Origin: Candidatus Sphingomonas phytovorans
Lineage (GTDB): Bacteria > Pseudomonadota > Alphaproteobacteria > Sphingomonadales > Sphingomonadaceae
DNA: 64,000 nt
Direction of reading: 5' to 3'
Assembly (NCBI GenBank): GCA_029202385.1
Contig: CP119314.1
Coordinates: 374,501-438,500, forward strand
Shown: positions 10,819 to 41,530 of the stretch, in pieces
How positions within the stretch are numbered: position 1 is the stretch's first letter
Layout of the letters: each line of letters opens with the position of its first letter
Notes under the pieces: model-generated
What the model was told of the DNA's origin: nothing
Databases searched by the model: none
What the model saw: the letters and a program-made list of their open reading frames with translations, nothing else
Made by a program: the position numbers and the translations under genes

Positions 10819-11046
10819 CATCAAGCCCAGCGCACGCTTGTTGGCTTCCATGATGTTGAGCGTCACCTTGATATCGGCGCGGCTGGGGGAGGGGGCGTCG
10901 TTGGGATGATTATGAACCAAGATGGTCGCCGCCGATCCAAGGTCCATCGCCGGTTGGATCACCTCGTGGACATGCATCGCAGCTTCGTCAATCTATCCCT
11001 CGCTCATCAGCTTGTTGGGGATCAGCATGTTTTTTGTGTGAAGATA
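10819..11046 (-). pseudogene. Remnant of the radC 3' end (displaced copy)
   Basis: Read on the minus strand this repeats the C-terminal half of the intact RadC at 12261-12950: LHTKNMLIPNKLMSEG, then a stop, then IDEAAMHVHEVIQPAMDLGS and ILVHNHPNDAPSPSRAD. The JAMM-type motif HNHPSGDPSPSRAD has become HNHPNDAPSPSRAD. A 60-base in-frame deletion has removed the 20 residues corresponding to MGIAVHDHIIMGTSGHSSLR, and the normal stop is lost. It cannot be functional. Same orientation as intact radC, with accessory genes between the two copies. Confidence 0.88.
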
Positions 11047-11158
11047 AAAATGGGAATATAAAAAGAGATATATTTGAAAATACGTGCTTTTAACCGCATT
11101 CTGAACGAATCGTTTCGCTGTGCTATCGGGGGGTGAGTGCCTGTAGCCGGAGCGACTG

Positions 11159-11629
11159 ATGGCTTTGATGATCGAGCTTTTTCCGGAACATCTGCAAGCG
11201 ATTGGAACGATCGCTGTAAGATGGTCATCCGTTGATCGAGTGATGCATGACATTTTGCTGCTGGATTTTGCGATGTCCGAAGATGCGCAAATACTCAGAG
11301 CGTGCAACGCCGGTGTAAGTCGACTGGAACTGTTCAAAAGTCGCGTGGAAAAGACGAATATTGTCGAAAGATCCAATCTGGTGGCTGCTGCCGTGCGATT
11401 GGTGGAGTTGGCGAAGGAGCGTAATTTAATTGTTCACGGCCAATATGGGGTTATTGTCGGTGACGATGGAGCGTTGGCCGCATCGTGGAGCGATATTGGA
11501 TTGAAGAAGGGCGGTAAGGATTTTTCAGAAGGCGGGCTTGTCACAACAGAGCATTTGTTAGGTCACGCCGATGACGTGAAAGCGGCGAGCGAACCACTTC
11601 GAGCCTATCGCTACAGGGCTCCCACCTGA
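11159..11629 (+). CDS. HEPN-like hypothetical protein (accessory)
   Basis: The 156-residue protein has a GGAG ribosome site and a helical composition. The segment KERNLIVHG (Arg88, His93) matches the R-x4-H motif of HEPN-type RNases, common in toxin and defence proteins; the assignment rests on this motif alone. The gene is visibly less GC-rich than its neighbours and lies between a decayed and an intact copy of radC, which suggests recent acquisition. No antitoxin or nucleotidyltransferase partner is adjacent. It could also be a non-catalytic HEPN-fold protein. Confidence 0.6.
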   Translation: MALMIELFPEHLQAIGTIAVRWSSVDRVMHDILLLDFAMSEDAQILRACNAGVSRLELFKSRVEKTNIVERSNLVAAAVRLVELAKERNLIVHGQYGVIVGDDGALAASWSDIGLKKGGKDFSEGGLVTTEHLLGHADDVKAASEPLRAYRYRAPT

Positions 11630-11781
11630 CGGGCGAACAGCAAGCTAGTGCCTGATTTGAACATGACCACGTCACCTTGATATCACCTTGAGATCGAACA
11701 GGTGGGGCATTTCGTTCTCTTATCGGAACAAGAAAGCTGCTCACATCATGACAGTCCAGAGGTCGCGAGCGGCTCGAAGCA

Positions 11782-11801
11782 GCCGGGGATTTCTCCCCGG
11801 C
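11782..11801 (-). terminator. GAAA-loop hairpin after the 28-residue ORF
   Basis: An 8-bp perfect stem (11782-11789 with 11794-11801) closes a loop reading GAAA on the minus strand, 9 bases beyond the small ORF stop. Only a weak T-rich stretch follows. Confidence 0.5.
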
Positions 11802-11810
11802 CACCTATTG

Positions 11811-11897
11811 TCAGAGGTGCTTAGACAGGATCAGGATCACGGCCAGCACGATAGCCGTAAGATCCAGCTTTATTGCGATATTGAGTTTTGGCTTCAC
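11811..11897 (-). CDS. 28-residue hydrophobic peptide (predicted small membrane protein)
   Basis: The frame starts with GTG, preceded by GGGAG at 7-base spacing, and ends in TGA with a stable GNRA-loop hairpin after it. The peptide begins MKPKLNIAIKLDLTAIV and ends SKHL. It has a basic N-terminus, one transmembrane-like Val/Ile/Leu helix and a basic tail, the layout of small inner-membrane peptides and of some type I toxins. It sits in the accessory segment between the radC remnant and intact radC. No antisense RNA gene could be identified. Function unknown. Confidence 0.5.
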   Translation of the reverse strand: MKPKLNIAIKLDLTAIVLAVILILSKHL

Positions 11898-12260
11898 GGC
11901 CAATCTCCCAACAATCGCGGGCCCGCTATTGCTTCTATGCCGCGTCCGGCAGTTGCTTTGCCCTCTATGGGCGATTTCTGGGGTGCCCCTCTGCGGGGCT
12001 GGTCCTATGCCTCTGTCCCGAGGCGTGGACGACTGGGCGCGAATTGCTGGGTCACAAAGACTGCCTCGGCTGCCGTAATTCGTCGATACGCCCCGTCCGA
12101 GGTGAAGTCAATCGTCACCTGTTCCGTATTTGTTTCAGGGCATTGCGCGCGAATTACGTCGCCGAGGCCCTTTGACCTCGGGTTTGCTCCCATGATGTCC
12201 AGGCATCAAAGGAGGCGGCTGGTTCGGATCAATCGCTCCGGCCGGTCATCGGCTTCGCTG
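11898..12260. other. Stretch without a convincing gene inside the radC island
   Basis: A minus-strand frame at 12005-12193 (62 codons, containing EQVTIDFTSDGAYRRITAAE) looks protein-like but has no ribosome site, so it may be a gene fragment. Long plus-strand frames here are antisense to radC. Nothing else is supported. Confidence 0.4.
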
Positions 12261-12950
12261 CTAAATCAAGCCAAGCGCGCGCAGGCTCGAATGGCCGCTG
12301 GTGCCCATGATGATGTGATCGTGCACCGCGATGCCCATGCGCTTGCCGGCTTCGGTGATGTTGCGCGTCACCTCGATATCGGCGCGGCTGGGCGAGGGAT
12401 CGCCGCTGGGATGATTATGGACCAGGATGATCGCCGCCGATCCCAGGTCCATCGCCCGCCGGATCACCTCACGGACATATACCGCCGCTTCGTCGATCGA
12501 CCCCTCGCTCATCAGCTCGTCGCGGATCAGCATGTTCTTCGTGTTGAGGTGGAGCACGCGGACGCGCTCGTTGACGTGATGCGCCATGTCGGCGCGGAGA
12601 TAGTCGAGCAGCGCCTGCCAGTTGGACAGCACCGGGCGCTCGGCGACTTCGGCGCGCACCAGCCTCAGGGCCGTCGCGTGGGCGATCTTGATTGCCGCGA
12701 TCGATGTCTCGCCCATGCCTTTGATGCGTGCGAGCGCTTCCGGTTCGGCGGTCAGCAACCCGCCGATCCCGCCGAACTCGGCCAGCAGGGCTTTCGCGAG
12801 CGGTTTTGTGTCTCGACGGGGAATCGCCAAAGCGAGCAGATATTCGATCAGCTCATGATCGAGCAGCGCATCCGATCCGCCCTCGTTGAGCCGCTTGCGC
12901 AGGCGGGCTCGGTGGCCGCTATTGTCTGGTTCGGGAACGCTCATCGCCAT
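12261..12950 (-). CDS. radC: RadC-family JAMM-domain protein
   Basis: About 229 residues from the chosen ATG at 12950 (MAMSVPEP); an in-frame TTG at 12983 is an alternative start, and neither has a strong ribosome site. The N-terminal helix-hairpin-helix region (LLDHELIEYLLALAIPRRDTKPLAKALL) is followed by the MPN/JAMM domain with LVHNHPSGDPSPSRAD and the later HDHIIMG. Despite the name, RadC's role in DNA repair is not established; many copies are associated with mobile DNA. Its 3' half is duplicated as a decayed copy at 10819-11046. Confidence 0.9.
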   Translation of the reverse strand: MAMSVPEPDNSGHRARLRKRLNEGGSDALLDHELIEYLLALAIPRRDTKPLAKALLAEFGGIGGLLTAEPEALARIKGMGETSIAAIKIAHATALRLVRAEVAERPVLSNWQALLDYLRADMAHHVNERVRVLHLNTKNMLIRDELMSEGSIDEAAVYVREVIRRAMDLGSAAIILVHNHPSGDPSPSRADIEVTRNITEAGKRMGIAVHDHIIMGTSGHSSLRALGLI

Positions 12951-13055
12951 TGGAGGATTAGTGCGGGGGGTGGCGACGCGCAATTGCGCGTGCTTGCTGG
13001 TGCCCTATGATCGAAACGCGCGTGCCTTGTGCCGCAACCGGGAGTGGCGAGCGGC

Positions 13056-16000
13056 GTGAGTCTGGACGAATCGGTTGAAGACAGGCCCCGCTGGCAGCGC
13101 ACCCGTCGGGTCGCGCTTGTCGTCGCGCTCGTGCTGCTGGGCGGACTGATCGCATTGTGGACTCAGCGCAAGCCGATCGCCGCCAGCTATATCGACAAGG
13201 CGCTCACTGGCTACGGCGTACCCGCGCGCTACCGTATCGCCGATCTCGGCTTTGACCGTCAGCGGCTCACCGATGTGATGATCGGCGATCAGGCTCATCC
13301 CGATCTCGTCGCGGACTGGATCGAACTGCGCACCAGCATCGGCCTGTCCGGTGCGGCCGTCACCGCGGTCCGTGCCGGTCATGTCAGGATGAATGCCCGA
13401 CTGGTCGGCGGTAAAGTGTCGCTCGGTGCGCTCGACAAGTTCATGCCCGCCTCCTCGGGGAAGGGGAAACCGTTCGCGCTGCCCGCACTCGATGTCGATA
13501 TGGAGGATGTGCGAGTCAGGTTCGTCGCCCCGCAGGGTGTGGTTGGGCTCAAGCTGAGCGGACGGGGGAGGCTCGACAACGGCTTTACCGGCCAGGTCGC
13601 GGCGATCGCGGAGCGGCTCGATCTGGGGGGCTGCGTCAGCGGCCCGGCGACCGCCGTGCTGGCGGTGCGAATCGCAGGCGCGGGGCCATCGTTGCGCGGG
13701 CCAGTCCATGCCGCCGCGCTTGACTGCGCTGGCGCGAAGGTGACCGATGCCGGGGCTGATGTCGCGGTAACGCTCGATCAGGCGCTTGATGGATGGCGCG
13801 GCACCGCGAAGCTTGCCCTGGCGAAGGTTCGGCATCCCGTCGCCGAGATTCATGCTCTTGGCGGTACGATCGATTTTGCCGGCAGGGCCGATGGCACGGC
13901 CGGCAAGCTTGACCTGAAATCGGGCGTCGCGGCGGTTCGCGGCGTTGCCGCCGACGCGACGACGATTGCCGGGGCATATCGCTTTGGGAAGGGGGGCATC
14001 GGGTTCGACGGCAAGATCGGCGCACGTCACGCCCTGATGGGCCGGCTGATGCGCGCCCGGCTCGCCTCCTATCGGGGCATGGGCGACGGCACGCCGGTCG
14101 CCCCGCTTTTCCGCAAAGCAGTCGATGCCTCGGTCGCCGCGGCGCAGTCTGCCGATCTCGAGGCGACGATCGCCGTCTCGCTGAACGGTGGCCATGGCGA
14201 GGCGAAAGTTTCGCGGCTGCAACTCGCCACGGCATCCGGTGCCTGGGCCACGATCGGGGAGGGGGCCGGCATCGGCTATGCCTGGCCGGCCGGGGGCATT
14301 CGATTCGACGGTTCGGTCGATATCGGCGGCGGCAACCTGCCCGGCGCGACGGTCAGGATCATGCAGGCGCGCGCGGGCGGGCCGGTGACCGGCACCGCGA
14401 CTGTCCAGCCTTATGCCGCCGGCAATGCGCGCCTGTTGCTTACGCCGGTCAGCTTCGCGGCCACGCCCGGCGGGGCCACCCGGCTCTCGACGCGCATCAC
14501 GCTGTCGGGGCCGCTTGGCGACGGCCGTGTCGACAATCTCGTCATGCCGGTGACGGGCCTGTGGGACGGCCACGACCGGCTCCAGATCAACCGCACCTGC
14601 GCGCCGCTGTCGATCGGCGCGCTCGCCGTGTCGAGCTTCAGGCTGCGCCCGGCGGCCGTCACGCTTTGCCCGGTCGACGGCGCGATGTTCCGCCTTGATG
14701 GAGGGCGAGCAGGCGGCGGCGTGCAATCCGGCGCGCTGACCCTGTCGGGAGCGATCGGCAAATCGCCGCTGGCGCTGTCCTCGGCCAATCTGATGCTGCG
14801 GCTTCGTGACTCTCATATCGACCTGCATGACGTCGATCTCCGCATCGGTGAGTCGGATCGGGTCACCCAGCTTGCCTTCGGGCGGATCGAGGGCGGTTTT
14901 TCGGGCGGTGCCATGGCCGGGACGATCGAGGCCGGCTCGGGCCGGATCGCGAATGTGCCGCTGCTGATGTCGGAGGCGGTCGGGCCCTGGACCTTCGCCA
15001 AAGGCGCGCTCGATCTCAGTGGCGGCTCCCTCCGCGTCGCCGATGCAGCCGCTTCGCCACGCTTCAACGGCCTTGCCGCCCGCGATGTCGCGCTCCGGCT
15101 CGCGGACAACCGAATTACCGTCACCGGCCGGCTGGTGACGCCGGTCAAGGGCGTTTTGATCAGCGGCGTCGCGATCGAGCATGATCTGTCGACCGGCGGT
15201 GGCCATGCCGACCTGACCGTGCCCGGCATTGCCTTTGGCGAGGCGCTTCAGCCCGATCAGATCACGCCGCTGACCTTTGGCGTGATCGCCAATGTCGTCG
15301 GAACCGTGTCGGGGGAGGGGCATATCCGCTGGAATGCTGATGGCGTGACCAGTGATGGCGTGTTCCGCACGCCCGGCACTGATCTCGCGGCCGCGTTCGG
15401 CCCGGTGACCGGCATAGCGGGGGAAATCCGCTTCACCGACCTGCTCAATCTTGAAACCGGGCCCGGCCAGATCGCGACGATCAAGACGATCAATCCCGGC
15501 ATCGCGGTCAATGATGGCACGATCCGCTATCGGTTGCTCGCCGGAACGCGGGTTCAGGTCGAGGACGGGCGGTGGCCCTTTGCCGGCGGGGCGCTGGTGC
15601 TGGAGCCGACCATGCTCGACTTCGGGCAGAAGATCGCGCGCCGCATGACCTTCACCGTGACCAGCATGGACGCGGGCCAGTTCCTCCAGCAGTTCGACTT
15701 CAAGAATCTCAACGCCACCGGCATCTTCGACGGCACCTTGCCGATGGTGTTCGACGAGCAGGGCGGCCGGATCGAAAATGGGCGGCTGACCGTGCGCGTC
15801 GGCGGCGGCACGCTCGCTTATGTCGGCGAGATCAGCCAGAAGGATGTCGGCATGTGGGGCAATCTCGCCTTCCAGGCGCTGAAATCGCTGCGCTACCGCT
15901 ATCTGGAACTGGTGATGAACGGCCCGCTGGCGGGTGAGATGGTCACCGAGGTGCGCTTCGCCGGGATCGGCCAGGGCGAGGGAGCGAAGCGCAACTTCGT

Positions 16001-16223: not shown

Positions 16224-16270
16224 CCGAAACAGGATTGACGAAACGAAAGTGGAGACCGACGAGGTACGGG

Positions 16271-16453
16271 ATGAAGAGAATGCTATCGATCGTCGCCCTG
16301 GGCGCCAGCACCGCGACAAGCGGCTGCATCAACGTGACCGCTCCGGACAAGCCGATCGAGATCAATCTCAACATCAACGTGACGCAGGAAGTGGTCTATC
16401 GGCTCGATGGCGAGGCGAAGACGTTGATCCAGCAGAATCCGGGTATTTTCTGA
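16271..16453 (+). CDS. ynbE: YnbE-like small lipoprotein
   Basis: A 60-residue protein from the ATG at 16271 with GAGG six bases upstream; a frame-internal ATG at 16220 overlapping the ydbH stop is less likely because it adds a non-signal extension. The N-terminus MKRMLSIVALGASTATSGC ends in a lipobox-like SGC, though Thr at -3 is unusual. The mature part KPIEINLNINVTQEVVYRL matches the YnbE pattern. In E. coli YnbE pairs with YdbH to form an outer-membrane-anchored bridge. Its stop overlaps the ydbL start (TGATG). Confidence 0.8.
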   Translation: MKRMLSIVALGASTATSGCINVTAPDKPIEINLNINVTQEVVYRLDGEAKTLIQQNPGIF

Positions 16454-16833: not shown

Positions 16834-16839
16834 CGTCTT

Positions 16840-16863
16840 CCCTCTCCCGTGCGCGGGAGAGGG
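16840..16863 (+). terminator. Palindromic hairpin after ydbL
   Basis: A perfect 10-bp stem (16840-16849 with 16854-16863) closes a TGCG loop right after the ydbL stop. It is the same style of G/C-rich palindrome as after dnaJ and lacks a T-run. Confidence 0.6.
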
Positions 16864-16929
16864 GCCACACCGGCCGCGCGTCCGATAAAGGCGGCGTCGA
16901 CGGGGCTGCCTGTGACTGTGTCACCAAGG

Positions 16930-16958
16930 TTGACTCAGGCCGACCCCTTTCCTAAACG
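16930..16958 (+). promoter_or_regulatory. Candidate sigma-70 promoter of the F0 ATP synthase operon
   Basis: TTGACT (16930-16935), a 17-base spacer and TAAACG (16953-16958) lie about 85 bases upstream of the atpI start. The -35 element is good and the -10 element is weak. This is motif evidence only. Confidence 0.4.
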
Positions 16959-17041
16959 GGCGCCGCAACGGGGGCCTGCCCCATGTTTATCCGTCGCCGT
17001 GCGCAAGCCCGGCGGCGTTTTCTTATCAGGATGCTTTCGCG

Positions 17042-24984: not shown

Positions 24985-25514
24985 GCGCCCCTCCGAACAT
25001 GATTCGATGGGGCGTCGTCTAGCGAGGCCCGGCGGGATAGCCAATGAACCCCTATCTATACCCCGGACGGTATCGGCATGACCCGGTGGTGTTTCCGCCA
25101 GGCCAACCCGCTCCTTGAAGCGAGGGGCAATCCCGTCTCTTACTTAAATAGCGCATTGAAATTGCGACGGCAGTACATTTGACGGCAGTACATTTAATGC
25201 TTGGCCAATGCCATCGGCCCTCCTATCGGCGAATGCACTGTCGCCGTTATTCCCGGGGGCGAGCGGCTCGCCGATGGTCCTGTCCCAGAATACGAGCGTC
25301 TCGCGCTGGTTGGTGATCCCGATCGCGGCGATCCTGGGTAATCAATAGCGGTGACAGTGCACTTAATTAATCGGCGCAACGCCGCCGTTCGCTTGGACTA
25401 ATGGATTGAATTCACTGTCGCCGTTATTCCCGTTATTCGACGATGTTCCCCGGGATCAGCGAACTTTGGAAATGAATAAAAGTAATCTAAGCGCGACCGC
25501 AGATGTGCGGCTAA
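24985..25514. other. Repeat-rich intergenic stretch
   Basis: No gene supported. It holds a perfect 15-base tandem (25166-25180 and 25181-25195), two exact copies of CACTGTCGCCGTTATTCC (25236-25253 and 25413-25430) and an inverted partner containing GCGGTGACAGTGC (25349-25361). The first copy and the inverted partner form an imperfect inverted repeat spanning about 25235-25361. A diverged copy of the same motif lies next to the pgmB remnant at 41433-41448. Confidence 0.6.
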
Positions 25515-26321
25515 ATGGAGGGTATGTTGTCTATTCCACTGATCGTTCTGGCCGCAGCACTTCCCTCCCGGCCCATTTATCATCCCTTCCTGCCCGTCAC
25601 CCCCGCGCCGATCACCATCACGCCGGAAAATGTCGACCTCGACGGAGCAGGGCGTCTGGAGTTCAAGCCTTATCCGACAGCCTTTCACGCCAATCCCCCT
25701 ATAGGCGGCGACGGCATCACTATCGCGGTCCGGTTGTGGGTCGATCCAAATGGTCAGCCAGTGTCCTGCGATGTCGGGCAATCAAGCATGCCTGAGGTCG
25801 CGCAGACTGGCTGCTCGCAACTGTTGAAGACCGCGAAATTTCATCTGATTTCCGGTTTCGCTTTGCCGTTTCGGCGAGGATTCGTGGATGTCCAGTTCAG
25901 TTTTTTCAAAAGCCAGTCGAATGGGCGGAATGGCGAGGTCATGTACGCATTCTCACAGCCGGGTTATATCAACACCGAAATTCATTATCCTGCTGACGAT
26001 ACGCCTGCTGACCAGGTGCTCGCCGATGCCGATGGTCGTTTCACGTTTATTGGCGGCATCACCGACATGGATTTTCCATCTATCGCGATCCGATATGGTA
26101 TGGAAAGCCGTAGCCTGTCTCTTCTGGGGATTGATCGTGAAGGCAAAGTTCGCAGTTGCCGTCCGGTCGGCACTTCGTCCGCTGCAAACACAGCTTTCCT
26201 GGACAATTATACCTGCCAAGTGCTTTTGAAGCGCGGCCATTTCGAGTTTAACCCTTCTGCGCTGAGCTACAGCGGACTGCATTATCGAACTCAAGTTTTG
26301 TCGTGGAAGATGCCGCAATAG
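25515..26321 (+). CDS. Hypothetical exported protein with two TonB-C-like halves
   Basis: Up to 268 residues; starts at 25515, 25524 or TTG 25527 are possible, the last best spaced from GGAGG. A short hydrophobic N-terminus (MLSIPLIVLAAALPS) may be a signal sequence. Two halves share the pattern G-x-V-x-S-C, then a Cys about 16-20 residues on, then a short helix and F-x-x-N/S: GQPVSCDVG with TGCSQLLKTAKFH, and GKVRSCRPVG with YTCQVLLKRGHFEF. This resembles tandem TonB C-terminal-like domains. Base composition is lower in GC than the core genes, so it may be acquired. Function unknown. Confidence 0.65.
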   Translation: MEGMLSIPLIVLAAALPSRPIYHPFLPVTPAPITITPENVDLDGAGRLEFKPYPTAFHANPPIGGDGITIAVRLWVDPNGQPVSCDVGQSSMPEVAQTGCSQLLKTAKFHLISGFALPFRRGFVDVQFSFFKSQSNGRNGEVMYAFSQPGYINTEIHYPADDTPADQVLADADGRFTFIGGITDMDFPSIAIRYGMESRSLSLLGIDREGKVRSCRPVGTSSAANTAFLDNYTCQVLLKRGHFEFNPSALSYSGLHYRTQVLSWKMPQ

Positions 26322-26351
26322 GGCAGGCGTTGTTCGAGGGTTTCAGGGACA

Positions 26352-26568
26352 CAATACTAAACTACCACCCCAACCCACCTCAAGTAATCACCCCACTCCG
26401 CCGGATCGGGTTCTCCCGCTCCAGCGCAATCCGCTTCGCAATCTCCCGGTTCAGGTCCGTCGGATGCTCCGCAAAGGCCCGCGGCGTCATCCCCGTGAAA
26501 TGCTTGATCTCCCGCGTCACATGCGACTGGTCGTAGAATCCCTCTTCCAGCATCTCGTTGAGTTCGGG
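26352..26568 (-). pseudogene. AraC-type regulator 3' end, copy 1 (displaced remnant)
   Basis: The minus strand encodes only the last part of an AraC-family DNA-binding domain (GFYDQSHVTREIKHFTGMTPRAFAEHP, ending GVIT and stop at 26380). The second HTH of AraC is present; everything upstream is missing. The 217-base block 26352-26568 is a diverged direct duplicate of 28350-28569. No start with a ribosome site exists. It is a gene-end fragment, not an expressed regulator. Confidence 0.8.
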
Positions 26569-26605
26569 CATTCCAGTCACACTCCACTCAATTACCAAAC
26601 GCATC

Positions 26606-26683
26606 GGCGCACGGGTGGATTCAGTGGAGTGTCACCGGAACTCCGGCGCACGGGTGGATTCAGTGGAGTGTCACCGGAACTCC
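26606..26683. repeat. Perfect 39-bp tandem duplication
   Basis: Units 26606-26644 and 26645-26683 are identical. Each ends in GTGTCACCGGAACTCC, loosely like the CACTGTCGCCGTTATTCC motif at 25236 and 25413. It lies beside the broken end of AraC copy 1, i.e. at the edge of the PI-PLC segment. Confidence 0.85.
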
Positions 26684-26750
26684 AGCGAAATCTTCCCCAT
26701 GAGGGCAGGCTCGACCAGGGCAGGGCGGAGCGGAAGCCCGGGCGCCGCGT

Positions 26751-28133
26751 TTAATCGCGGGCGCGCTGCTCCGTCACCTGGATCGCGGTCTCGACCATGC
26801 AATTGTCGACGAAGTCGTTGAGGAACACGAGCAAGTGATCGGGCGACAGTCGCTTGGCAGCGTGTTCGCGCAGCCAGGGATTGGTCGCGGCATCCATTAC
26901 TGCCTTGGTCGCCAGCAGGGGCGAGGAGGCGTCGCTCGTCGTGACGACCGAGGCCGCGACGACCGCACCGATCTTGGTCGCCGTCGCCTGCATCTGCATC
27001 ACGACATGGTTGGCATTCGCCGGCATGTCGCGCTTCATGCCTTCAAAGGCTTTGATGATGGGGGCCGGCCTCAACGTGGCATAGGCCCCGCTCCAGCTGT
27101 TGTAGAAGCCCGACCCGTTGTCGATCGGGTTCGTGAAGATCAGGCGGGTATTGTCGCGTATCAGCGCATCGTAGCTCCTGTCGAGATCGGTGGACATGCC
27201 GATGTCGATCCGCCAGGGCAGCTTGACCTTGGCGATCGCGGTAGTGAGCGCCTCCCGCGCGAAAAAGTCGTTGGGCCTCATCGCGTCGGCTGCGAAGCCC
27301 TGGGTGTTGGGGTTGACCACCACGATCTCGCCGGGATTGGCCTCGAGCCAGCGCAGCACGTCCACCAGGAAATCCACATAGGGATAGCCGGGGACAAGGC
27401 CGTGCTGGTGATAGAGCGTGTTCCCGAAGAAAGGGCGGATCGCGGGATGCATCCAGCCGGGACGAAAATCGAAATAGCGGGTACCGATGTCCAGCTGCGT
27501 GCGGATATCGTCCTTCTGCGTCATCGCGAGATTGGCGATGGCGCGCGGCCCGAGCAGGGCGGCGGCCACGCCCATATGCGCGCCGAGCGCGATGACGAAC
27601 GCGGGGTTGTGCAGTATCTTCCGTACCGCGCGCATGTCGAACATGCCGGCATCATGGGAACCGGGCAGCGCGAATCGGGCGAAGGGCCCGCGCGCGACGT
27701 GCGGATTGCGCTTCGCGAGATCGCCCATCCAGCGCCGCTGATCGCGCGTCGCATAGACGTAAAGCTGATGTTGGTTGGTCATCCCCGAGACCTTGCCCGA
27801 TCCCGCGTCGTAGAGGCCCCAGCAGACGGTCGGATTACCGATCCGCGGCGGCGTCTTGAACATGGTGTGCATCGTGCCGGTCTTGAGGTTGCCGTCGAGC
27901 GAGCTGATGTTCTGCCACTGCCTGATCATCTCCTTGCCGCGATCGGTCGTGACCCATTCCAGCCTGCCGGTGTAGTTGACCGGATCCGGAATGTTGCCCG
28001 ACTGGACCTGGAAGTTGTTGCGCTTGAAATTGGCCTCGGGGCCGTGTGAGCGCGGAATCTTCGGCACGCCGAGGTCGGTGCGGAGATCTTCCGAATCCGA
28101 ATAAAGATAATAATCGATTCCCTTCGCGACCAT
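26751..28133 (-). CDS. PI-PLC-like phosphodiesterase (TIM barrel)
   Basis: About 460 residues from the ATG at 28133 (MVAKGIDYYLYSDSED), which has AAAGGA upstream; a GTG at 28169 is less likely. The central part matches the PI-PLC X-domain pattern: FALPGSHDAGMFD with the first catalytic His, then LDIGTRYFDFRPGW, TLYHQHG with the second His, and IVVVNPNTQG. It should cleave a phosphodiester such as phosphatidylinositol or a related lipid. No signal peptide is seen, so location is uncertain. It stands alone between two duplicated AraC gene ends, suggesting horizontal acquisition. Confidence 0.75.
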   Translation of the reverse strand: MVAKGIDYYLYSDSEDLRTDLGVPKIPRSHGPEANFKRNNFQVQSGNIPDPVNYTGRLEWVTTDRGKEMIRQWQNISSLDGNLKTGTMHTMFKTPPRIGNPTVCWGLYDAGSGKVSGMTNQHQLYVYATRDQRRWMGDLAKRNPHVARGPFARFALPGSHDAGMFDMRAVRKILHNPAFVIALGAHMGVAAALLGPRAIANLAMTQKDDIRTQLDIGTRYFDFRPGWMHPAIRPFFGNTLYHQHGLVPGYPYVDFLVDVLRWLEANPGEIVVVNPNTQGFAADAMRPNDFFAREALTTAIAKVKLPWRIDIGMSTDLDRSYDALIRDNTRLIFTNPIDNGSGFYNSWSGAYATLRPAPIIKAFEGMKRDMPANANHVVMQMQATATKIGAVVAASVVTTSDASSPLLATKAVMDAATNPWLREHAAKRLSPDHLLVFLNDFVDNCMVETAIQVTEQRARD

Positions 28134-28349
28134 GATCTTTTCCTTTCGCCGATAAAGATCGTTTCGCACACGAAACCTGAATCTGGAAGTCGATTAAACA
28201 GTTATCGAAGAATTATTCTAGAAAGCGAAACAACCATCGTGACTACGGCCGGGTTGACGACCATTTTGGTTAGTTCGAGCCGTTCATTGGCCGTAACTCG
28301 AGGCGATCTGAAGTTCCGTTGTGCATGCCGGTAGGGTGTTCCGGGGGCG

Positions 28350-28735
28350 CAATACTAAACCATCAGCAGCACCACTTACCTCACGTAATCGCACCACTGC
28401 GCCTGATCGGATTTTCCCGCTCCAACGCAATCCGCTTCGCAATCTTCCGGTTCAGCCCCGTGGGATGCTCGGCAAAGGCACGCAGCGTCATCCCCGTGAA
28501 ATGCTTGATTTCCCACGTCACATGCGACTCGTCGTAGAAACCCTCTTCCAGCATCTCGTTGAGCTCGGGGTCGCGATGCATCATCGCCACCGCCGCGCGC
28601 AGCGCCCGGTATTTGCGGGCCAGCACCTTGGGCGGCGACCCGAAATAGCGTTTGCAGTTGCGCTGCACCTGCCGCAGCGACAGGCCGGTCAGCGCAATCA
28701 GGTCGTTGATGTCGGGCGCGACGGCACAGCCTGGT
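28350..28735 (-). pseudogene. AraC-type regulator 3' end, copy 2 (longer fragment)
   Basis: On the minus strand this keeps more of the AraC DNA-binding domain: DINDLIALTGLSLRQVQRNC, then YFGSPPKVLARKYRAL and GFYDESHVTWEIKHFTGM, ending at a stop near 28381. The N-terminal effector domain is missing and the 5' side stops near 28735, where the exported-protein gene follows, so this too is a fragment. 28350-28569 duplicates 26352-26568. Both copies have the same orientation and bracket the PI-PLC gene. Confidence 0.8.
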
Positions 28736-30855: not shown

Positions 30856-30959
30856 TAACGGTTGAAACGGGACGGCGCGTCCCGCACGGCCTCGCTCTTC
30901 TTCCTCCCGCCGCGTCACCGTCCGCCGCTTTGCGTGATCGCGTCCGTCCCCTTCCTATC

Positions 30960-31125
30960 CGGCACCGGTTCCAGCCCGGCCGTTCCACGCGCTGTCGCCT
31001 GGGCGGTTCCGGCACTTGTACGGCATCTGCCGGTCGCGCCGCTGCCGGGCTTCGGCTTGCCCGGCCATGTCGATCCATCGGCCCTGCGCGATTCCGTTGC
31101 CCTTCGGCACACCCTCCACAGGCTC
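30960..31125 (-). pseudogene. Decayed fragment of a DUF5681 gene
   Basis: On the minus strand GIAQGRWIDMAGQAEARQRR aligns with RIAQRKWIEMVEQAESQQKR of the intact DUF5681 protein at 45805-46374. After a frameshift, VPEPPRRQRVERPGW aligns with TLELPTRKFVDRPGW. The order and spacing match a 41-residue block of the intact protein. No start or stop is in the right place. It lies just upstream of the MFS gene and its operator, so an element with this gene once sat here. Confidence 0.65.
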
Positions 31126-35263: not shown

Positions 35264-35329
35264 AGAATGATCTGACGTTATCGCCGGCCCGGCTTGCCCC
35301 CACCGAGTTGCCTGCCCTAGGGTGATGCC

Positions 35330-36373
35330 ATGGCCAATGGAGCGAAGCGGAAGAATGACGGCGGGCAGGGCGCCGGTGCCGCGTTGACGATGAGCGACAT
35401 CGCGCGCCTCGCGAACGTTTCCAAGCCGACCGTGTCGCGCGTGCTGAACGGCAGCCCGCTGGTCACCGCCGAGACCCGCGATCGCGTGCTCGAGGTGGCC
35501 CGTGCCAACGGCTATGCGGTCAACCGCAACGCGCAGAAACTGCGTCAGTCGCGGGCCAACACGGTCACCGTCGTGCTCGATTTCGGCTCGCACCGCGCCG
35601 GCTCGATCGCCGATCCGTTCATCTTCGAGCTTCTCGCCGGCGTGTCGGAGGCCTTGTCGATCCGCGACCAGGATCTGCTGCTGTCGCCCCCCGGGCTGAG
35701 CGACGCCCGGTCCTTCCAGGACTTGTACCGCGCCCGCGCGACGGACGGCTTCATCGTCCTCGGCCAGGGCACGCGCCACGCGCTGCTGACAACGCTCGCC
35801 AGGGGTGGCCTGCCGCTGGTGGTGTGGGGCGCGGTCGATCCGGGCGGCCCCTATTGCGCGGTCGGCAGCGACAATCTCACCGGCGGGCGGCTGGCCGGCG
35901 AGCGTTTCCTGTCGCGCGGCGCGAAGCGCTGGCTCTTCGTCGGCAATATCGAGCATGCCGAGATCGATCTTCGCTTCCAGGGCCTCCGCCAGGCCGCCAG
36001 GGACAGCGGCCAGGATATCAGGATCGACCGGCTGCCGATCGAATCCATGGCCTATTCGCACACCTTCCAGGGCGCCCAGAACTATATCCGCGACCATGAG
36101 GCGCCCGACGCCGTCTTCGCCTTTTCCGATACCGCGGCGATGGCGGTGATCGGTGCGTTCCGCGCCGCCGGCCACCGCACGCCGGAGGATTATGCGCTGG
36201 TCGGCTACAACAATATCCCGCCCGCCGCGCATTTCACCCCGGCGATCACCACGATCGAGCAGGAGACGGGGATCGCGGGCGCCATCCTGGTCGAAAAGCT
36301 GATGCAGATGATCGACGGCACGCGGCCGAAATCGGTGATGCTGCCCACCCGCCTGATCGAGCGCGAGACCTAG
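35330..36373 (+). CDS. LacI-family transcriptional regulator
   Basis: 347 residues. The helix-turn-helix and hinge are at about residues 20-75 (TMSDIARLANVSKPTVSRVL). A periplasmic-binding-protein-like effector domain follows, with TDGFIVLGQG, CAVGSDNLTGGRLAGE and PDAVFAFSDTAAMAV. It probably represses the saccharide genes until the sugar, or a product, binds. It is divergent from the TonB receptor and upstream of the GH65 gene. Three matching palindromes in the locus fit its role. Confidence 0.93.
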   Translation: MANGAKRKNDGGQGAGAALTMSDIARLANVSKPTVSRVLNGSPLVTAETRDRVLEVARANGYAVNRNAQKLRQSRANTVTVVLDFGSHRAGSIADPFIFELLAGVSEALSIRDQDLLLSPPGLSDARSFQDLYRARATDGFIVLGQGTRHALLTTLARGGLPLVVWGAVDPGGPYCAVGSDNLTGGRLAGERFLSRGAKRWLFVGNIEHAEIDLRFQGLRQAARDSGQDIRIDRLPIESMAYSHTFQGAQNYIRDHEAPDAVFAFSDTAAMAVIGAFRAAGHRTPEDYALVGYNNIPPAAHFTPAITTIEQETGIAGAILVEKLMQMIDGTRPKSVMLPTRLIERET

Positions 36374-36483
36374 AAGCGGCGCTGCCGGCGCGATTCAGCC
36401 CGGGTGGAGGGGAGGGCGGTGACACGCGGCGCTGCCCCTCGGGATGTTTTTCCCCACGATTCCCCGATCCGGAAACCCATTGA

Positions 36484-36497
36484 TGAAATCGATATCA
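36484..36497 (+). promoter_or_regulatory. Predicted LacI-family operator upstream of the GH65 gene
   Basis: TGAAATCGATATCA is one mismatch from a perfect palindrome and matches the operators at 31127-31140 and 35250-35263. It sits 59 bases before the GH65 start. Confidence 0.6.
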
Positions 36498-36555
36498 TCG
36501 CGCATAGGAAGCGCGAACAACGTCGATTTCGGACAAGAACGGGCAGAGGACAGGC

Positions 36556-38826
36556 ATGGATTCGAAGGTGGAGCGGCCGGCTGGGGAGAGCGGTTCGCCT
36601 GTTCAGGTCGGCGACGGAGGCTGGGTGCTGACCAGCTTCGGGTCGAACCCCGATCACGAATCATGGGCCGAAACGATCTTCGCCCTGGCCAATGGCGCGA
36701 TTGGGGTGCGCGGCTCGATCGACGAGTGTGGCGGCGGCGACGGATCGACCTTTCTCGCGGCCGCCTATGAGGTCAGCCCGATCGCCTATCACGAGCGGTT
36801 CCGCGGCTTTGCCGAGACCACCGATACCCGGGTTCCCGTCGCCGAGGCGATGCTGGTGCGTATCGCGATCGACGGTGCCCTTGTCGATTTTGCGCGCGCC
36901 ACGGCCGAGCGGACCTGCCGCCGGATCGATCTCCGCTCCGGCGTGCTGACCCGGGAGACCCGCTGGCTGCTGGCCGACGGCCGGCGGCTGGACGTGGCGG
37001 CCGAACGGATTGTCCCGCTTGACGGCACCACCGGCTATGCCCGGCGGATCCGCGCCGCGCCGGTCGATTTCACCGCGCTGGTCACGCTCGCCCCCCATGT
37101 CGCGCCCGCGCCCCAGGCGGCCGGCCAGGCCGACGATCCGCGCCTCGGCGTGAATCTCCACGCGCACGGCTTCATGCCCTTTGGCGAGCAGGCGCCCGAC
37201 CTCGTCGTCGAGAAGCTTCGCGGCAGCGGCATCGTGGTCGGCGCTGCGCAGGTCACGCGCGACGCGGGCAATGCCGACGGCGCAGCCCTGGTCGACATCT
37301 TCACCGGCTACGCGGTCCAGCCCGATGCAGACGACGCCGGGGCGATCGCGACCGCCGCACGCGCCACCGCCGCCGCTCTGGCGGCGATCGGCTTCGATTC
37401 GCTCGTCGCCCGGCAACATGCGCTGCTCGATGCCTTCTGGCGCAACGCAGTGATCGAGATCGACGGCGACGACGCGGCCATGGCGGCGCTGCGCCTCAAT
37501 CTCTTCCACCTCTTCCAGTCGGCCGGCCGCGACGGCCACAGCAGCGCCGCCGCCAAGGGCCTGACCGGCCAGGGCTATGAGGGTCATTATTTCTGGGATA
37601 CCGAGGCATTCATGCTCCCGGTGCTGGCGGTGACCGCGCCGGAGATCGCGCGCGCGATGCTCGCCTATCGCTACCAGACGCTCGACGCGGCGATCGCCAA
37701 TGCCCGCGCGCTCAACCATGATCGCGGCGCGCTCTATGCGTGGCGCACCATCGCCGGGCGCGAATGCTCGGCGCATTATCCGAGCGGGTCGGCCGAATAT
37801 CACATCAACGCCGCGGTCGCCTATGCGATCGGCTGCTACGACAAGGCGACCGGCGACACTGGTTTCCTGGTGGAAATGGGCGCCGAGATGCTGGTCCAGA
37901 CCGCGCGCCTGTGGATCGATCTCGGTACGCACGAGGCGCGGACCGGCGAATTCTGCATCCGCGGCGTCACCGGCCCCGACGAATACACCGCCCTGATCGA
38001 CAATAACTGGTACACCAACCGCATGGCCCAGGCGCATCTCCGCCTCGCGGTGGAGGTGGTCGCCCGGGTCGCTGAAGCCGCGCCGGAAAGCTGGTCGGCA
38101 ACGGCCACGCGTATCGGTTTCGATTCCGCCGAGACGATCGCCTGGACCAGAGCCGCCGATGCGATGCGCCTGCCTTATGACGAAGATCTTCAAATCGACG
38201 CACAGGACGACAGCTTCCTGAAGAAACCGCGCTGGGATCTTGCCGGCACCCCGGCCGACAAATTCCCGCTCCTGCTCCATTATCACCCGATGACGCTGTA
38301 CCGGCATCAGGTCGCCAAGCAGGCGGATCTCGTGCTCGGCCTCGTCCTCGGCGGCGACGGCATCGATGTGGAGCGCAAGCGGCGCGCCTATGATCATTAT
38401 GATTCGGTCACGGCGCATGATTCGACCCTTTCGGCCTGCAGCTTCAGCGTGCTGGCCAGCGAGGTCGGCCGCTCGGTTGATGCCTGGCGGCATTTCCGCA
38501 GCACCAGCTTCGTCGATATCGAGGACCTGCACCGCAATACCGATCACGGCGTCCACATGGCCGCGATGGCGGGAAGCTGGATGGCCTATGTCTGGGGTTT
38601 CGGCGGCTTCCGCCTGCGCGGCCCACTGCCAAGCTTCGCCCCCGTGCTGCCGGAGGCATGGCGCGGCTACGGCTTCGGCATGCTGTGGCGCGGCAGCAGG
38701 CTCCGCGTCGATGTCGATGCGGCGGGCGTGACCTATCGCAACCTCGACGGCCCGCCGCTCGCCTTCGCGCACCGCGACGCCCCGCTCGTCCTCGCGCCCG
38801 GCGAATCCCGGCATTTCGCCGCATGA
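36556..38826 (+). CDS. Family GH65 glycoside phosphorylase (maltose/trehalose/kojibiose type)
   Basis: 756 residues. The GH65 N-terminal beta-sandwich is followed by the (alpha/alpha)6 barrel with GYEGHYFWDTEAFMLPVL, then RTIAGRECSAHYPSGSAEYHI and VTGPDEYT, in which Glu476 is the general acid. A small C-terminal beta domain ends the protein. These enzymes split an alpha-glucosyl disaccharide with phosphate, giving beta-glucose-1-phosphate and glucose. The stop overlaps the beta-phosphoglucomutase start (ATGA), the next step. Which disaccharide it prefers cannot be read from sequence. Confidence 0.93.
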   Translation: MDSKVERPAGESGSPVQVGDGGWVLTSFGSNPDHESWAETIFALANGAIGVRGSIDECGGGDGSTFLAAAYEVSPIAYHERFRGFAETTDTRVPVAEAMLVRIAIDGALVDFARATAERTCRRIDLRSGVLTRETRWLLADGRRLDVAAERIVPLDGTTGYARRIRAAPVDFTALVTLAPHVAPAPQAAGQADDPRLGVNLHAHGFMPFGEQAPDLVVEKLRGSGIVVGAAQVTRDAGNADGAALVDIFTGYAVQPDADDAGAIATAARATAAALAAIGFDSLVARQHALLDAFWRNAVIEIDGDDAAMAALRLNLFHLFQSAGRDGHSSAAAKGLTGQGYEGHYFWDTEAFMLPVLAVTAPEIARAMLAYRYQTLDAAIANARALNHDRGALYAWRTIAGRECSAHYPSGSAEYHINAAVAYAIGCYDKATGDTGFLVEMGAEMLVQTARLWIDLGTHEARTGEFCIRGVTGPDEYTALIDNNWYTNRMAQAHLRLAVEVVARVAEAAPESWSATATRIGFDSAETIAWTRAADAMRLPYDEDLQIDAQDDSFLKKPRWDLAGTPADKFPLLLHYHPMTLYRHQVAKQADLVLGLVLGGDGIDVERKRRAYDHYDSVTAHDSTLSACSFSVLASEVGRSVDAWRHFRSTSFVDIEDLHRNTDHGVHMAAMAGSWMAYVWGFGGFRLRGPLPSFAPVLPEAWRGYGFGMLWRGSRLRVDVDAAGVTYRNLDGPPLAFAHRDAPLVLAPGESRHFAA

Positions 38827-39479
38827 GCGTCTTTCCCCGCCCGCTCGGCGCGATCCTGTTCGATCTGGACGGCGTGCTGACCGACACGGCCGAGGCCCAT
38901 TATCGCGCGTGGAAGGCACTGGCCGACAGCATCGGCGTGCCGTTCGATCACGCGGCGAACGAACGGCTGAAGGGCGTCGACCGGATGGGCTCGCTCGATC
39001 TCATCATCGGCGACCGGCCCGGCTTCGATGCCGCCCGCCGCGCTGAACTCGCCGCCCTGAAGAACGGCTGGTATCTTGAGGAGATCGCCCATTTCACGCC
39101 GGAGGAGCTGTTCCCGGGCGCACGCGCCGTCCTGGAGGAAGCGCGGGCGGCCGGGCTGAAGCTCGCCCTTGCCTCGGCCAGCCGCAACGCGCCGCTGCTG
39201 CTCGATCGTCTGGGGATCGCCGGCTTCTTCGATGCCGTGGCTGATCCGGCGAAGGTGGCCGCGGGCAAGCCCGCACCCGACATCTTCCTCGCGGCCGCCG
39301 CCGCGACCGGCACCGCTCCGGCGCTGTGCCTCGGTGTCGAGGACGCGGCTGCCGGAGTCGCGGCGATCCGGGCGGCGGGCATGGCATCGCTCGGCATCGG
39401 ATCGCCGGCGATCCTGCCGGCCGATCGGGTGATCCCGACGATCGGTGACTTTCGGCTGGGCGATTATCTCGCCGGCTGA
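38823..39479 (+). CDS. pgmB: Beta-phosphoglucomutase
   Basis: 218 residues, HAD superfamily. DLDGVLTD holds the nucleophile Asp14 and acid/base Asp16. ASASRN is motif II, AGKPAPDIF holds the motif III Lys and GVEDAAAG is motif IV. It converts beta-glucose-1-phosphate from the GH65 enzyme to glucose-6-phosphate. The start is in an ATGA overlap with GH65; longer upstream frames lie inside that gene. The last 81 bases recur as a diverged copy at 41450-41530. Confidence 0.95.
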   Translation: MSVFPRPLGAILFDLDGVLTDTAEAHYRAWKALADSIGVPFDHAANERLKGVDRMGSLDLIIGDRPGFDAARRAELAALKNGWYLEEIAHFTPEELFPGARAVLEEARAAGLKLALASASRNAPLLLDRLGIAGFFDAVADPAKVAAGKPAPDIFLAAAAATGTAPALCLGVEDAAAGVAAIRAAGMASLGIGSPAILPADRVIPTIGDFRLGDYLAG

Positions 39480-39826
39480 GGCGCCTCATTGCTGCCGTTT
39501 TCGGTGAAAATCTTTCAAACCCCGATTGTCGCCTGCGAGCCGCCTTGGCGTCGCGTCGGATAGATTGCGGCGACGGCTGAAATGGGCCGACAGTCGACAG
39601 GCGGCATTCGATAAAACTATCCGGCGAACGGCGTGGGAATTAGTCAGCGGCTAGTCCAGAACGAAAATTAGTTCTATTTCTTGGCTGGATGGTTTGTGAC
39701 GCGTTCGAGCACGTTGACGAGGCATGGGCAAGGATCGACTTCGGCAAACGCATGTTGCACATACTATTTCCTAGAGTCGACGATATAAGTGTCGGTGCTA
39801 GGCGCGCGCGTCGAAGGGGGTGGAAA
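39480..39826. other. AT-richer gap before the beta-helix gene
   Basis: No gene is supported. It begins directly at the pgmB end, which fits the left edge of an inserted segment. An ATG at 39750 in frame with the next gene has no signal peptide context. No clear promoter found. Confidence 0.4.
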
Positions 39827-41329
39827 TTGATTATATCTAGGACGATATTTGTTGCAGTTTTATCGATATGCTTCGCAACCGCTGCATCTGCGCAAACAGT
39901 GCCGGGCGTCATCAACCTTGCAGATCCACCGTACAATGTAACCTGCAACTACAGTGCCGACATATCAAGTGCCGTCAACGCGGCGATTTCTGCTGTAAAT
40001 AGTTCAGGATACGCGCGCGCAACACTGCTACTGCCTGGCGGCCTCTGTCTTGTCACTGCGGGGATCAATATCAATGCCGGAACTTTCACCCTTAAGGGTG
40101 CCGGTAAGGATGTCACCACCCTCGTTCACAGTGGTACGACCGGCAATACGATTACGGTGCAGGGATCGGCCTTCGATATAATTCTTCAAGACTTCTCCAT
40201 CGCACAGCAAATGGGCGACACGCCGACGGCAGGCTACGGGGTGGAGGAGACCCAGGCGACTAACGTTAGTCTGCGCAATATGCGCATCCAGGGGGTGTAT
40301 GTGGGCGCCGCGGCCGTCAACACCGGTGTCTCGGGCGTCATGACGATTGAGAGCGTCGATTTCGGGAACACCGTCCTCGATGCTGTCTACGCTAACGGCG
40401 TCTCGCAGCTTTTCATGTCTGAGGTTACATCCTACCAGAGCGCCCAGCAGACCAACGGGGGCGCGTGCATCCACCTGAACGCCGCCGCTGCATATATTCA
40501 AAACACTACCTGTGGTCAGAGCACCTATGGGCTCCTAATCAACCCGACGTTTGGCAACAGCGTCGTCGATGTATTTGCCACAAACCTAGAGCTAGATCTT
40601 TCGCAGCAGGATGGGGTAAAGATCGACGGCACGAACGGCAGTGTCTACAATATTAAGCTGACGAATGTGCGCTCCGGCTTCAGTTCGGGCAACGGGTTCA
40701 ATTTCATCGGCACGGGCGTTTCTCACGTCAGCCTGATCGGCTGTTCGGCGGAAAGTAGCACCCTGGTTGGTATCAACGTCCAGTATTTAGCTGATAGCGT
40801 AATTTCAGGTTGCCTCGTCGAGGGTAATTCATACACCGTAAGAGGCGGTTTCAACGGTATCAATTTGATCAACGGGTCCGGCCTCGTCGTCGCCAACAAC
40901 AGATCGGGGCCTTATCCCGGTAAGACCAACAACCAAGGCTACGGCCTGGCCATCCAGAACACCTTCACAGGTGGCCCGTTGACCGTAAGTCACAATATTC
41001 TGACGGAGAACGTTATCGGACCAATTTTCTACGGAAATCCGGCGAACAAGGCTATATTGGTTGAGGAGAACTCAACCGAGTTGGGCTTGACTGCGCGGGT
41101 GATGTGGCCGGCTCTCGGCACGTCACCATGGAGCTACACCGCTGGTCCGACGCCAACCACACTGATTCTTGTCAATTACGTTTGCAGCGCGCTCCAGATC
41201 AATGGAACTGGAAACAACATCTTCCCCCTGAGCAACTCAGGCTCGCTGGCGATCCCATTGCTGGCCTATCAGTCGCTCACGGGGACCTGCACGACCATGC
41301 CGTCCAACGTGACAGCGATCATCCAGTAG
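39827..41329 (+). CDS. Secreted right-handed beta-helix protein
   Basis: About 500 residues from TTG 39827, chosen because AAGGGGG precedes it and a signal peptide results (MIISRTIFVAVLSICFATAA, cut at SAQ). The body has many repeating strands of the pectate-lyase-like fold: GNTITVQGSAFDIILQDFSI, VSLRNMRIQGVYVGA, LVGINVQYLADSVISG, VVANNRSGPYPG. Such proteins are often polysaccharide lyases, tailspike-like or adhesive; no catalytic set is recognised. Base composition is lower in GC than neighbours, and a pgmB 3'-end copy lies beyond it, so it is likely inserted DNA. Confidence 0.75.
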   Translation: MIISRTIFVAVLSICFATAASAQTVPGVINLADPPYNVTCNYSADISSAVNAAISAVNSSGYARATLLLPGGLCLVTAGININAGTFTLKGAGKDVTTLVHSGTTGNTITVQGSAFDIILQDFSIAQQMGDTPTAGYGVEETQATNVSLRNMRIQGVYVGAAAVNTGVSGVMTIESVDFGNTVLDAVYANGVSQLFMSEVTSYQSAQQTNGGACIHLNAAAAYIQNTTCGQSTYGLLINPTFGNSVVDVFATNLELDLSQQDGVKIDGTNGSVYNIKLTNVRSGFSSGNGFNFIGTGVSHVSLIGCSAESSTLVGINVQYLADSVISGCLVEGNSYTVRGGFNGINLINGSGLVVANNRSGPYPGKTNNQGYGLAIQNTFTGGPLTVSHNILTENVIGPIFYGNPANKAILVEENSTELGLTARVMWPALGTSPWSYTAGPTPTTLILVNYVCSALQINGTGNNIFPLSNSGSLAIPLLAYQSLTGTCTTMPSNVTAIIQ

Positions 41330-41378
41330 GGCAGCCAGAGGCTGCTCATGACCACCACGACTGGAACTAGGGTGACCG

Positions 41379-41440
41379 GTGACAGTTTACTAAACAATGT
41401 GTCTGCAGGCACGGGGTGGAGGTAATTGGTAAACTGTCGC
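41379..41440. repeat. Inverted repeat beside the pgmB remnant
   Basis: GTGACAGTTTAC (41379-41390) pairs with GTAAACTGTCGC (41429-41440) in 11 of 12 positions. The right arm runs into ACTGTCGCTGTTATCC, related to the CACTGTCGCCGTTATTCC copies near 25.2-25.4 kb, and ends one base before the pgmB remnant. Confidence 0.6.
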
Positions 41441-41449
41441 TGTTATCCT

Positions 41450-41530
41450 GGATCGTCGGCGATCTTGCTGGCCGATTGCGTGATCCCGACGATCGCCGAT
41501 TTCCGGGTGGGCGATTATCTGGCGGGCTGA
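41450..41530 (+). pseudogene. Displaced 3'-end remnant of pgmB
   Basis: 81 bases align without gaps to the last 81 bases of pgmB (39399-39479), with 12 mismatches. It reads GSSAILLADCVIPTIADFRV then GDYLAG and a stop, against GSPAILPADRVIPTIGDFRL in the intact protein. Nothing upstream could express it. It marks the far side of the beta-helix segment. Confidence 0.88.

Follow-up and report, generated by a model that had tools for sequence, protein, structure and literature searches.

Prophage e14 inserts at icd, where the 3' end of a protein gene is restored and a copy displaced, and CIMEs are elements mobilised in trans. Homology-facilitated illegitimate recombination ties partial duplications to the uptake of partly homologous DNA. 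The cited parts of the literature describe the same tie for transformation-made merodiploids, with duplications of about 100-900 kb (PMC3784515), and insertion with long target duplication, proposed for restriction-modification genes in Helicobacter (Nobusato et al. 2000; PMC3031569, PMC4978471; also referenced in PMC3077401). RAYTs are described there as IS200/IS605-related Y1 transposases lying between two inverted REPs, and REPINs as non-autonomous units (PMC2817692, PMC3116915, PMC3390384); 'cargo', in the cited part of PMC3390384, stands for prophages and islands. A limited search of the RAYT/REPIN literature revealed no gene-carrying REP unit, and the literature found for REPINs in Sphingomonas was, judged by title, unrelated.

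In the window analysed here (the whole stretch of 64,000 nt from Candidatus Sphingomonas phytovorans) the duplications measure 0.1-0.3 kb, unlike those of the merodiploids as cited. We favour, at a probability of about 0.5, two processes rather than one: a homology-led insertion at radC, and a REP/RAYT-linked change at AraC and pgmB.

Repeat pairs in the window

Self-comparison of the window (cut-off E<=1e-3) returned five matches, among which the three direct-repeat pairs of duplicated gene ends put forward in a preliminary description ranked first, second and fourth, far above chance: an AraC pair (26340-26568/28338-28569; 232 columns, 85%, E 9e-71), a radC pair (10835-11039/12340-12544; 205 nt, 84%, E 2e-59) and a pgmB pair (39399-39480/41450-41531; 82 nt, 85%, E 1e-19). 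The third-ranked match, absent from that description, pairs two copies of a DUF5681 3' gene end (30895-31118/45811-46046; 73%), and the fifth is an inverted pair of 31 nt. The earlier observation was largely right, also in placing at radC and pgmB a complete gene on one side and a decayed 3' fragment on the opposite one.

The same-species comparison involved two genomes, the source genome (G000) and G244, and comparison with relatives highlighted positions 22668-45811 as a single variable region of the window. The empty sites anticipated in close relatives were borne out by G244 at radC, and not at the AraC/PI-PLC locus; at pgmB the slot in G244 holds other DNA. Among 21 of the window ORFs in 9-47 kb, those compared with Pfam, none matched a recombinase. 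Targeting of tRNA genes was rejected (0 tRNA genes within the window), as was a known RNA family (0 matches at gathering scores in 9000-47000).

Extra DNA at the radC gene end

The complete radC gene (12261..12944, minus strand; Pfam RadC, E 1.3e-40, and NCBIfam; stop codon at 12261-12263) adjoins approximately 1.43 kb of DNA (10837..12264, edges ambiguous by 17 nt) that is absent from G244, where the site is empty and the target occurs once. The extra DNA begins at the radC stop codon and reaches as far as a decayed copy of the radC 3' end (10819..11045, minus strand; ~290 nt of gene, which has an in-frame stop and, in the alignment, a 60-nt deletion) that continues into the native downstream flank, and whose tail can be aligned otherwise when the flank is left out. 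The flanking direct repeat has a 205-nt core within these ~290 nt of gene. A single radC copy was present in all ten other-species radC stretches examined. The insert, matched in one of 295 genus genomes (its own; E<=1e-6), carries a gene (11159..11629, plus strand) that is HEPN-like by its RNxxxH motif only; the gene had no match in Pfam, PADLOC or NCBIfam, and one other relative in the database (51%).

The complete gene differs from that of G244 at six positions in its last 19 nt, at 3 of 65 just before and at 9 of 300 in nt 300-600, and its C-terminus reads LGLI-stop (LGLM-stop in G244) despite the six differences in the last 19 nt. By codon position the differences from G244 fall 0/0/6, whereas those between the fragment and the complete gene (32 over 201 nt) fall 7/12/13 and come with an in-frame stop, which points to neutral decay of the fragment and speaks against the related-strain donor proposed earlier. 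Since the fragment diverges by 16%, against a third-position divergence of 8.6% between the strains, the copy has decayed too far to be explained simply by fresh DNA that inserted after the strains split: either it arrived already decayed, or an older insertion was later lost in G244. A radC paralogue (G000:C1:3374917) was rejected as its source, being 72% identical to radC where the fragment is 84%. No REP or recombinase was found at the segment; the one REP-matrix match (14.1 bits, within the fragment) is at background level.

Given the same-species empty site, the extra DNA beginning at the stop codon, the restored end and the fragment running into the native flank, the sequences support an insertion whose edge would have restored the gene end; the copies were not found here to be ancient tandem duplications independent of the cargo. 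We envisage that foreign DNA (circular or linear), one edge of which was homologous to the radC 3' end, integrated there, likeliest because the host gene end and the radC 3' fragment on the incoming DNA recombined by a single crossover or paired by homology on one side, which would yield the order complete gene, cargo, second 3' end. This fits an insertion with long target duplication: as in the cited account of such insertions, the insert lies between long direct repeats of the target and its mechanism is not evident from the insert, but no known family, whether of restriction-modification genes or others, was matched by the one insert ORF tested, and one radC copy is decayed.

REP heads at the AraC and pgmB edges

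A RAYT gene whose REP ends match the REPs of the window lies elsewhere in the source genome: it is a Y1_Tnp gene between two inverted REPs that recur elsewhere in this genome. RAYT genes in G000, G244, G101, G106 and at one G049 locus (L221) are flanked by inverted REPs whose heads point outward, and those in G098 and G101 by REPs of a second class; at other RAYT loci such a pair was missing (L211, L100), the repeats were of other kinds (L206, L209, L217) or a REP stood on one side only (L215, L216). As the REP types of the window also flank RAYT genes, both in this genome and in those of relatives, there is a transposase that could act in trans. The preliminary description had seen no integrase or transposase gene and had suggested looking for a recombinase in trans; none was matched among the 21 window ORFs, but this RAYT is encoded elsewhere in the genome. 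The RAYT units here (735-756 bp) and the REPINs resemble the systems described in the cited literature, which differ from the present case in its low REP copy number, its REPs at the edges of duplicated gene ends and its 1338-bp REP-to-REP segment with a gene.

A REP weight matrix trained only on RAYT-flanking REPs gave seven window matches at >=16 bits (one in the reversed control), all in the AraC and pgmB segments, and three across 37 unselected stretches of 20 kb from the same genome, where the control gave two. A REP head is found no more than 3 nt from four of the 16 repeat edges, and of 200000 random placements one reached three edges and none four, with a head list that was made after the edges were seen. 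Both AraC copies share one REP in this edge count. Pattern matches were few (8 in the 5.45 Mb of G000, 7 in G244 and 33 in G049, more decayed copies being uncounted). One REPIN locus of G000 is without a colinear counterpart in G244. The exact 8-base core was discarded as a REP test, as it occurs within 15 nt of ~3% of positions and is missing from degenerate heads.

At the AraC locus, the segment 25344..~26685 is absent from G244 (the left edge falls exactly on, and the right edge within 2-8 nt of, a REP head), and these presence/absence edges coincide with outward-facing REP heads at 25344 (+) and 26681 (-). The 1338 bp between them hold one gene and the short AraC copy, in the order REPIN (25344..25428; REP + 25344-25367, REP - 25405-25428), cargo gene (25515..26321, plus strand; a TonB_C match under the curated cut-off, from a family found mostly in sphingomonads), short AraC 3' copy (26340..26568, minus strand) and a second REPIN with a 39-nt tandem duplication (26569..26681; REP + 26569, REP - ending at 26642 and 26681). 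The short copy abuts the REP head 26569 on its right and begins on its left at a class-2 REP head, as does the long copy (28338..28735, minus strand; 4 mismatches); in the window, class-2 heads (<=4 mismatches) occur only at 26340 and 28338, and they were seen in 2 of 100 sampled stretches. The PI-PLC-like gene (26751..28169, minus strand; a weak match, E 0.0015), formerly regarded as the cargo between the AraC copies, was rejected as gained DNA, for G244 carries it beside a single AraC copy, the long one; the missing segment lies beyond it. Both AraC copies, the longer one included, proved to be 5'-truncated. Longer AraC frames (294-331 residues, stop to stop) exist in G059, G064, G049 and G251, and the short copy, 9.9% divergent from G059 and 10.4% from the long copy, possibly derives from a related intact gene. 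With only two same-species genomes compared, the segment may reflect either a gain or a loss. An alignment scan placed relatives of its cargo gene at four loci (L226-L229): one REP head 205 nt upstream at L226, none at L227, REPINs around another gene at L228 and one weak match at L229.

The complete pgmB-like gene (38823..39480, plus strand; Pfam HAD hydrolase) adjoins a 6-kb segment (39588..45807) with a beta-helix gene (its match under the curated cut-off), a REPIN (41372..41447; REP + 41372-41395, REP - 41424-41447), the pgmB 3' fragment (41450..41531, plus strand; 85% to the complete gene), a CatB-type acetyltransferase and a SIR2-STAND gene; Pfam also identified a GH65 in the window. As this segment is replaced in G244 by different DNA, and not absent, pgmB was rejected as the flank of one simple insertion. 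The inner edge of the fragment is 3 nt from a REP head, and the fragment diverges less from the two alleles of its own species (22% and 20%) than from other-species L035 (34%; 92-94 columns with flank). The right boundary of the variable region is the 3' end of the DUF5681 gene (45805..46383, minus strand; second 3' copy at 30895-31118), a pair whose edges have no REP head. Because REP heads edge AraC and pgmB, and not radC or DUF5681, the common mechanism advanced earlier is unsupported.

The survey count of other gene-end duplications left out tandem arrays, inverted pairs, pairs with gaps under 500 nt or under 75% identity, and those inside paralogous duplications (L139, L161 among them). 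In G049 a comparable duplication involves the 5' end of an AraC gene (L082), both copies ending on the REP type found beside G049 RAYTs; a 3' end is thus no requirement. By matrix, no REP occurred within 200 nt at L166, L168, L173, L174 and L142 (L166 has a bare 8-base core only, at 6 nt), and the nearest one to L114 was 53 nt away.

Competing explanations and meaning

A single non-coded route, in which donor DNA would be added at conserved gene ends by homology-anchored illegitimate recombination, accommodates the layout of complete gene, cargo and 3' fragment at radC, pgmB and DUF5681, the edges close to stop codons and the copies ~15% different, but leaves aside the REP heads at AraC and pgmB, the PI-PLC outside the event, the 5'-end case in G049 and the neutral decay at radC; we regard it as unlikely. 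It is similarly unlikely that a trans-mobilised (CIME/e14-like) element integrated site-specifically where radC ends (3'), the far fragment being the element's own gene-end copy. Such an element would resemble the locus in that it inserts at the 3' end of a protein gene, restores this end and displaces a copy, and would explain the changes concentrated in the last 19 nt, the restored C-terminus and a fragment carried in already decayed. Unlike e14 or a CIME, however, the radC locus showed no integrase and no demonstrated att core or mobilisation: no core with inverted arms was identified, the insert DNA was matched in its own genome alone among the 295, and no second radC copy was found in the four relatives with extra DNA beside radC (L068-L071). 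Compared for an identical attL/attR core, the segment ends overlap imperfectly by 17 nt.

The REPs near the fragments could have been inserted later, with deletion of the DNA next to them. REPINs may have entered older, unrelated partial duplications (hot-spot debris) and adjacent deletions trimmed the copies back to the REP, a scenario that we hold to be improbable, albeit less so than the previous two. The single variable region and the REPINs abutting truncated fragments at pgmB and the short AraC copy agree with it, while two observations argue against it: both AraC copies have the class-2 REP as their outer edge, and what G244 lacks at AraC is a segment that runs between REP heads. Under the favoured two-process reading, Y1-transposase action at REP heads, or the repair of the resulting breaks, would have moved or copied DNA beside REPs at AraC and pgmB. 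The wider proposal, that sphingomonad RAYTs act in trans at REP heads beyond REPINs, copying or excising one-gene segments and the gene end beside them (a mobilisation that is REP-headed and in part one-ended) and leaving duplicated gene ends here and in G049, is speculative and rather doubtful, and RAYT units with cargo are hypothetical.

The radC locus represents a clean insertion with long target duplication, with a same-species empty site, outside restriction-modification genes. Of most interest is the possibility of a RAYT/REP unit that carries a gene together with a gene end: should the edges be defined by REP heads, then RAYT/REP systems, usually regarded as spreading tiny repeats only, would also shuttle single genes and give rise to partial gene duplications.

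Direct repeats of gene ends and their base rate

By comparing the window with itself we obtained five matches at E <= 1e-3, among which the three direct-repeat pairs of the preliminary description (radC, AraC and pgmB) were recovered at ranks 1, 2 and 4. Rank 3 was an unlisted pair, a fourth duplication that involves the 3' end of a DUF5681 gene (30895-31118 and 45811-46046, 73% identity). It is present in the same-species genome G244 too (74%), 14.7 kb containing a GH65-type sugar cluster lie between its copies, and the copy edge at 45811 is also the point where conservation with G059 (a relative) resumes.

The base rate was assessed in self-compared 20-kb stretches (40 from the source genome G000, of which L104, L114 and L120 were picked for short repeats, REPs; 20 each from G244, G049 and G063), by counting direct pairs of 60-600 nt with at least 75% identity and a gap of 0.5-12 kb, paralogous duplications left out. 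In these sampled stretches such pairs numbered two in 800 kb of G000 (L114, and L120 with 60 nt and a gap of 509), one in G244 (L142, which matches inverted as well), four in G049 (L166, L168, L173, L174) and none in the 20 stretches of G063; seven other stretches from relatives added one pair (L082 of G049). Three pairs within the 64-kb window represent a local excess for G000. In L166 (15937-18281), 109 nt from the 3' part of a presumably dehydrogenase-like gene recur (95%) beyond a one-gene insert, which we take to carry an asparagine-synthase-type gene and a small upstream peptide.

The radC locus

Window blocks align to G244, labelled as the same species, with mean identities of 93-96% in 300-nt bins, and the empty site expected in a close relative was seen there, as window positions 10836 and 12265 adjoin at its radC. 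The complete radC tracks G244 closely (9 differences of 300 in nt 300-600; 3 of 65 just before the last 19 nt) except in the last 19 nt, where 6 differ (C-terminus LGLI in the window, LGLM in G244), and the far fragment continues into the flank found directly after radC in G244. Between fragment and complete gene, 32 of 201 positions differ (7/12/13 by codon position), and the fragment has an in-frame stop, whereas the complete gene differs from G244 at 0/0/6; this is neutral decay. Judging by the third-position divergence between the strains (8.6%; 510/5965 sites, 7 genes), the fragment either predates their split or had already decayed on arrival. The decay (10835-11039) is strand-skewed: read on the sense strand of radC, G>A changes number 14 and C>T changes 4.

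A single radC copy was present in each of 10 stretches from other species. In four of these, L068-L071 (G024, G018, G004 and G022), the purB-radC gap holds, from coordinates, more DNA (about 0.6 to 4 kb) than in other relatives, and no second radC copy was found in them despite this extra DNA, which marks the 3' side of radC as a recurrent insertion place. The insert DNA was matched at E <= 1e-6 in 1 of 295 genus genomes (its own); a candidate tiny hydrophobic peptide was read in it by eye (11820-11905, minus strand), near which Rfam gave no match. The locus fits an insertion with a long target duplication.

REP heads at the AraC and pgmB edges

The PI-PLC gene had been described as cargo between the AraC copies; this was not borne out, since G244 carries both PI-PLC and the long AraC copy, and the piece missing from it (25344-26689) contains one gene (19 database matches, itself included) plus the short copy. 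Both copies are truncated (the long frame exists in four relatives), and the divergence of the short one is 10.4% against the long copy, 11.0% against that of G244 and 9.9% against the gene of G059. The missing segment starts exactly at REP head 25344 and extends to head 26681, 2-8 nt from where G244 resumes. Its outer REPs are each part of a separate REPIN (REP pair), and the two REPINs are of different REP variants, so that the segment resembles REPIN - gene - gene end - REPIN. Both AraC copies have a class-2 head as outer edge (26340, 2 mismatches; 28338, 4; the copy in G244, 5), on its inner side the short copy adjoins head 26569, and the pgmB fragment starts 3 nt past head 41447. Of the 16 edges considered in the 9-47 kb interval, 4 lay within 3 nt of a head; among 200000 permuted placements three were reached once and four never, with a head list compiled after the fact.

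What the window and G244 share here extends through pgmB and for about 107 nt past its end, after which 6.2 kb (window) stand against 6.6 kb of different DNA (G244); the pgmB fragment is nearer to the pgmB alleles of this species than to the pgmB of another. The stretch 22668-45811 is a single large variable region, G059 having only about 3.6 kb and an AraC gene between the same flanks. It includes a defence-like SIR2-like and STAND-type NTPase protein (42944-45355; other DNA fills that slot in G244) and a protein that passes the NCBIfam cut-off as a type B chloramphenicol acetyltransferase (41871-42557).

With up to 2 mismatches, the edge motif GGTGACAGTNNACTNAATT has 8 copies in G000 and 4 in G244 (controls 0 and 1). 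Half of the G000 copies (4/8) lie in the AraC and pgmB segments, and two others flank, heads outward, a Y1_Tnp gene at 3.524 Mb (likewise in G244), whose product is a transposase that could act in trans. PF01797 was matched at E <= 0.001 in 13 of 121 genus genomes. Same-class inverted head-out pairs flank such REP-associated Y1 transposase genes (RAYTs) in G101, G106 and L221 of G049; the loci L215 and L216 have a REP on one side, L206, L209 and L217 have other inverted repeats instead, and no convincing flanking inverted repeats were found at L211 and L100. REPs of a second class, ATTTCGGGGACACAATACTAAA, occur as inverted pairs in G098 and lie beside RAYTs on both sides in that genome and in G101. 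A weight matrix trained solely on RAYT-flanking REPs (threshold >= 16 bits) gave 7 hits in the window (reversed control 1), all within the AraC and pgmB segments, 3 in 37 unselected G000 stretches (control 2), and 4, 11 and 6 in stretches of G244, G049 and G063 (controls 0, 1 and 1).

REP-linked rearrangement as a proposed explanation

A single gene-end mechanism for all three loci, as initially put forward, is not supported: REP heads lie at the AraC and pgmB edges, and the matrix scan gave only a background-level match at radC (and no REP at DUF5681). For AraC and pgmB, REP/RAYT activity within the variable region, or break repair linked to REPs, is a better explanation than a universal gene-end mechanism and may have shaped both loci. 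In L082 of G049 (8062-12322), about 3.7 kb is flanked by a duplicated AraC 5' end (262 nt, 95%), and each copy stops at a REP of the kind that accompanies the RAYTs of G049. In L228 (a Caulobacteraceae MAG; 42-987), a single gene, which we assume to be acetyltransferase-like, has a REPIN on each side, the two being direct copies (107 nt, 81%).

The anatomy of RAYT units and the mobility of REPINs are already known (PMC2817692, PMC3116915), and PMC2817692 reports RAYTs that meet its criteria in gammaproteobacteria only. Beyond these known features, it is the gene-carrying REP-to-REP segment that we single out as worth following.
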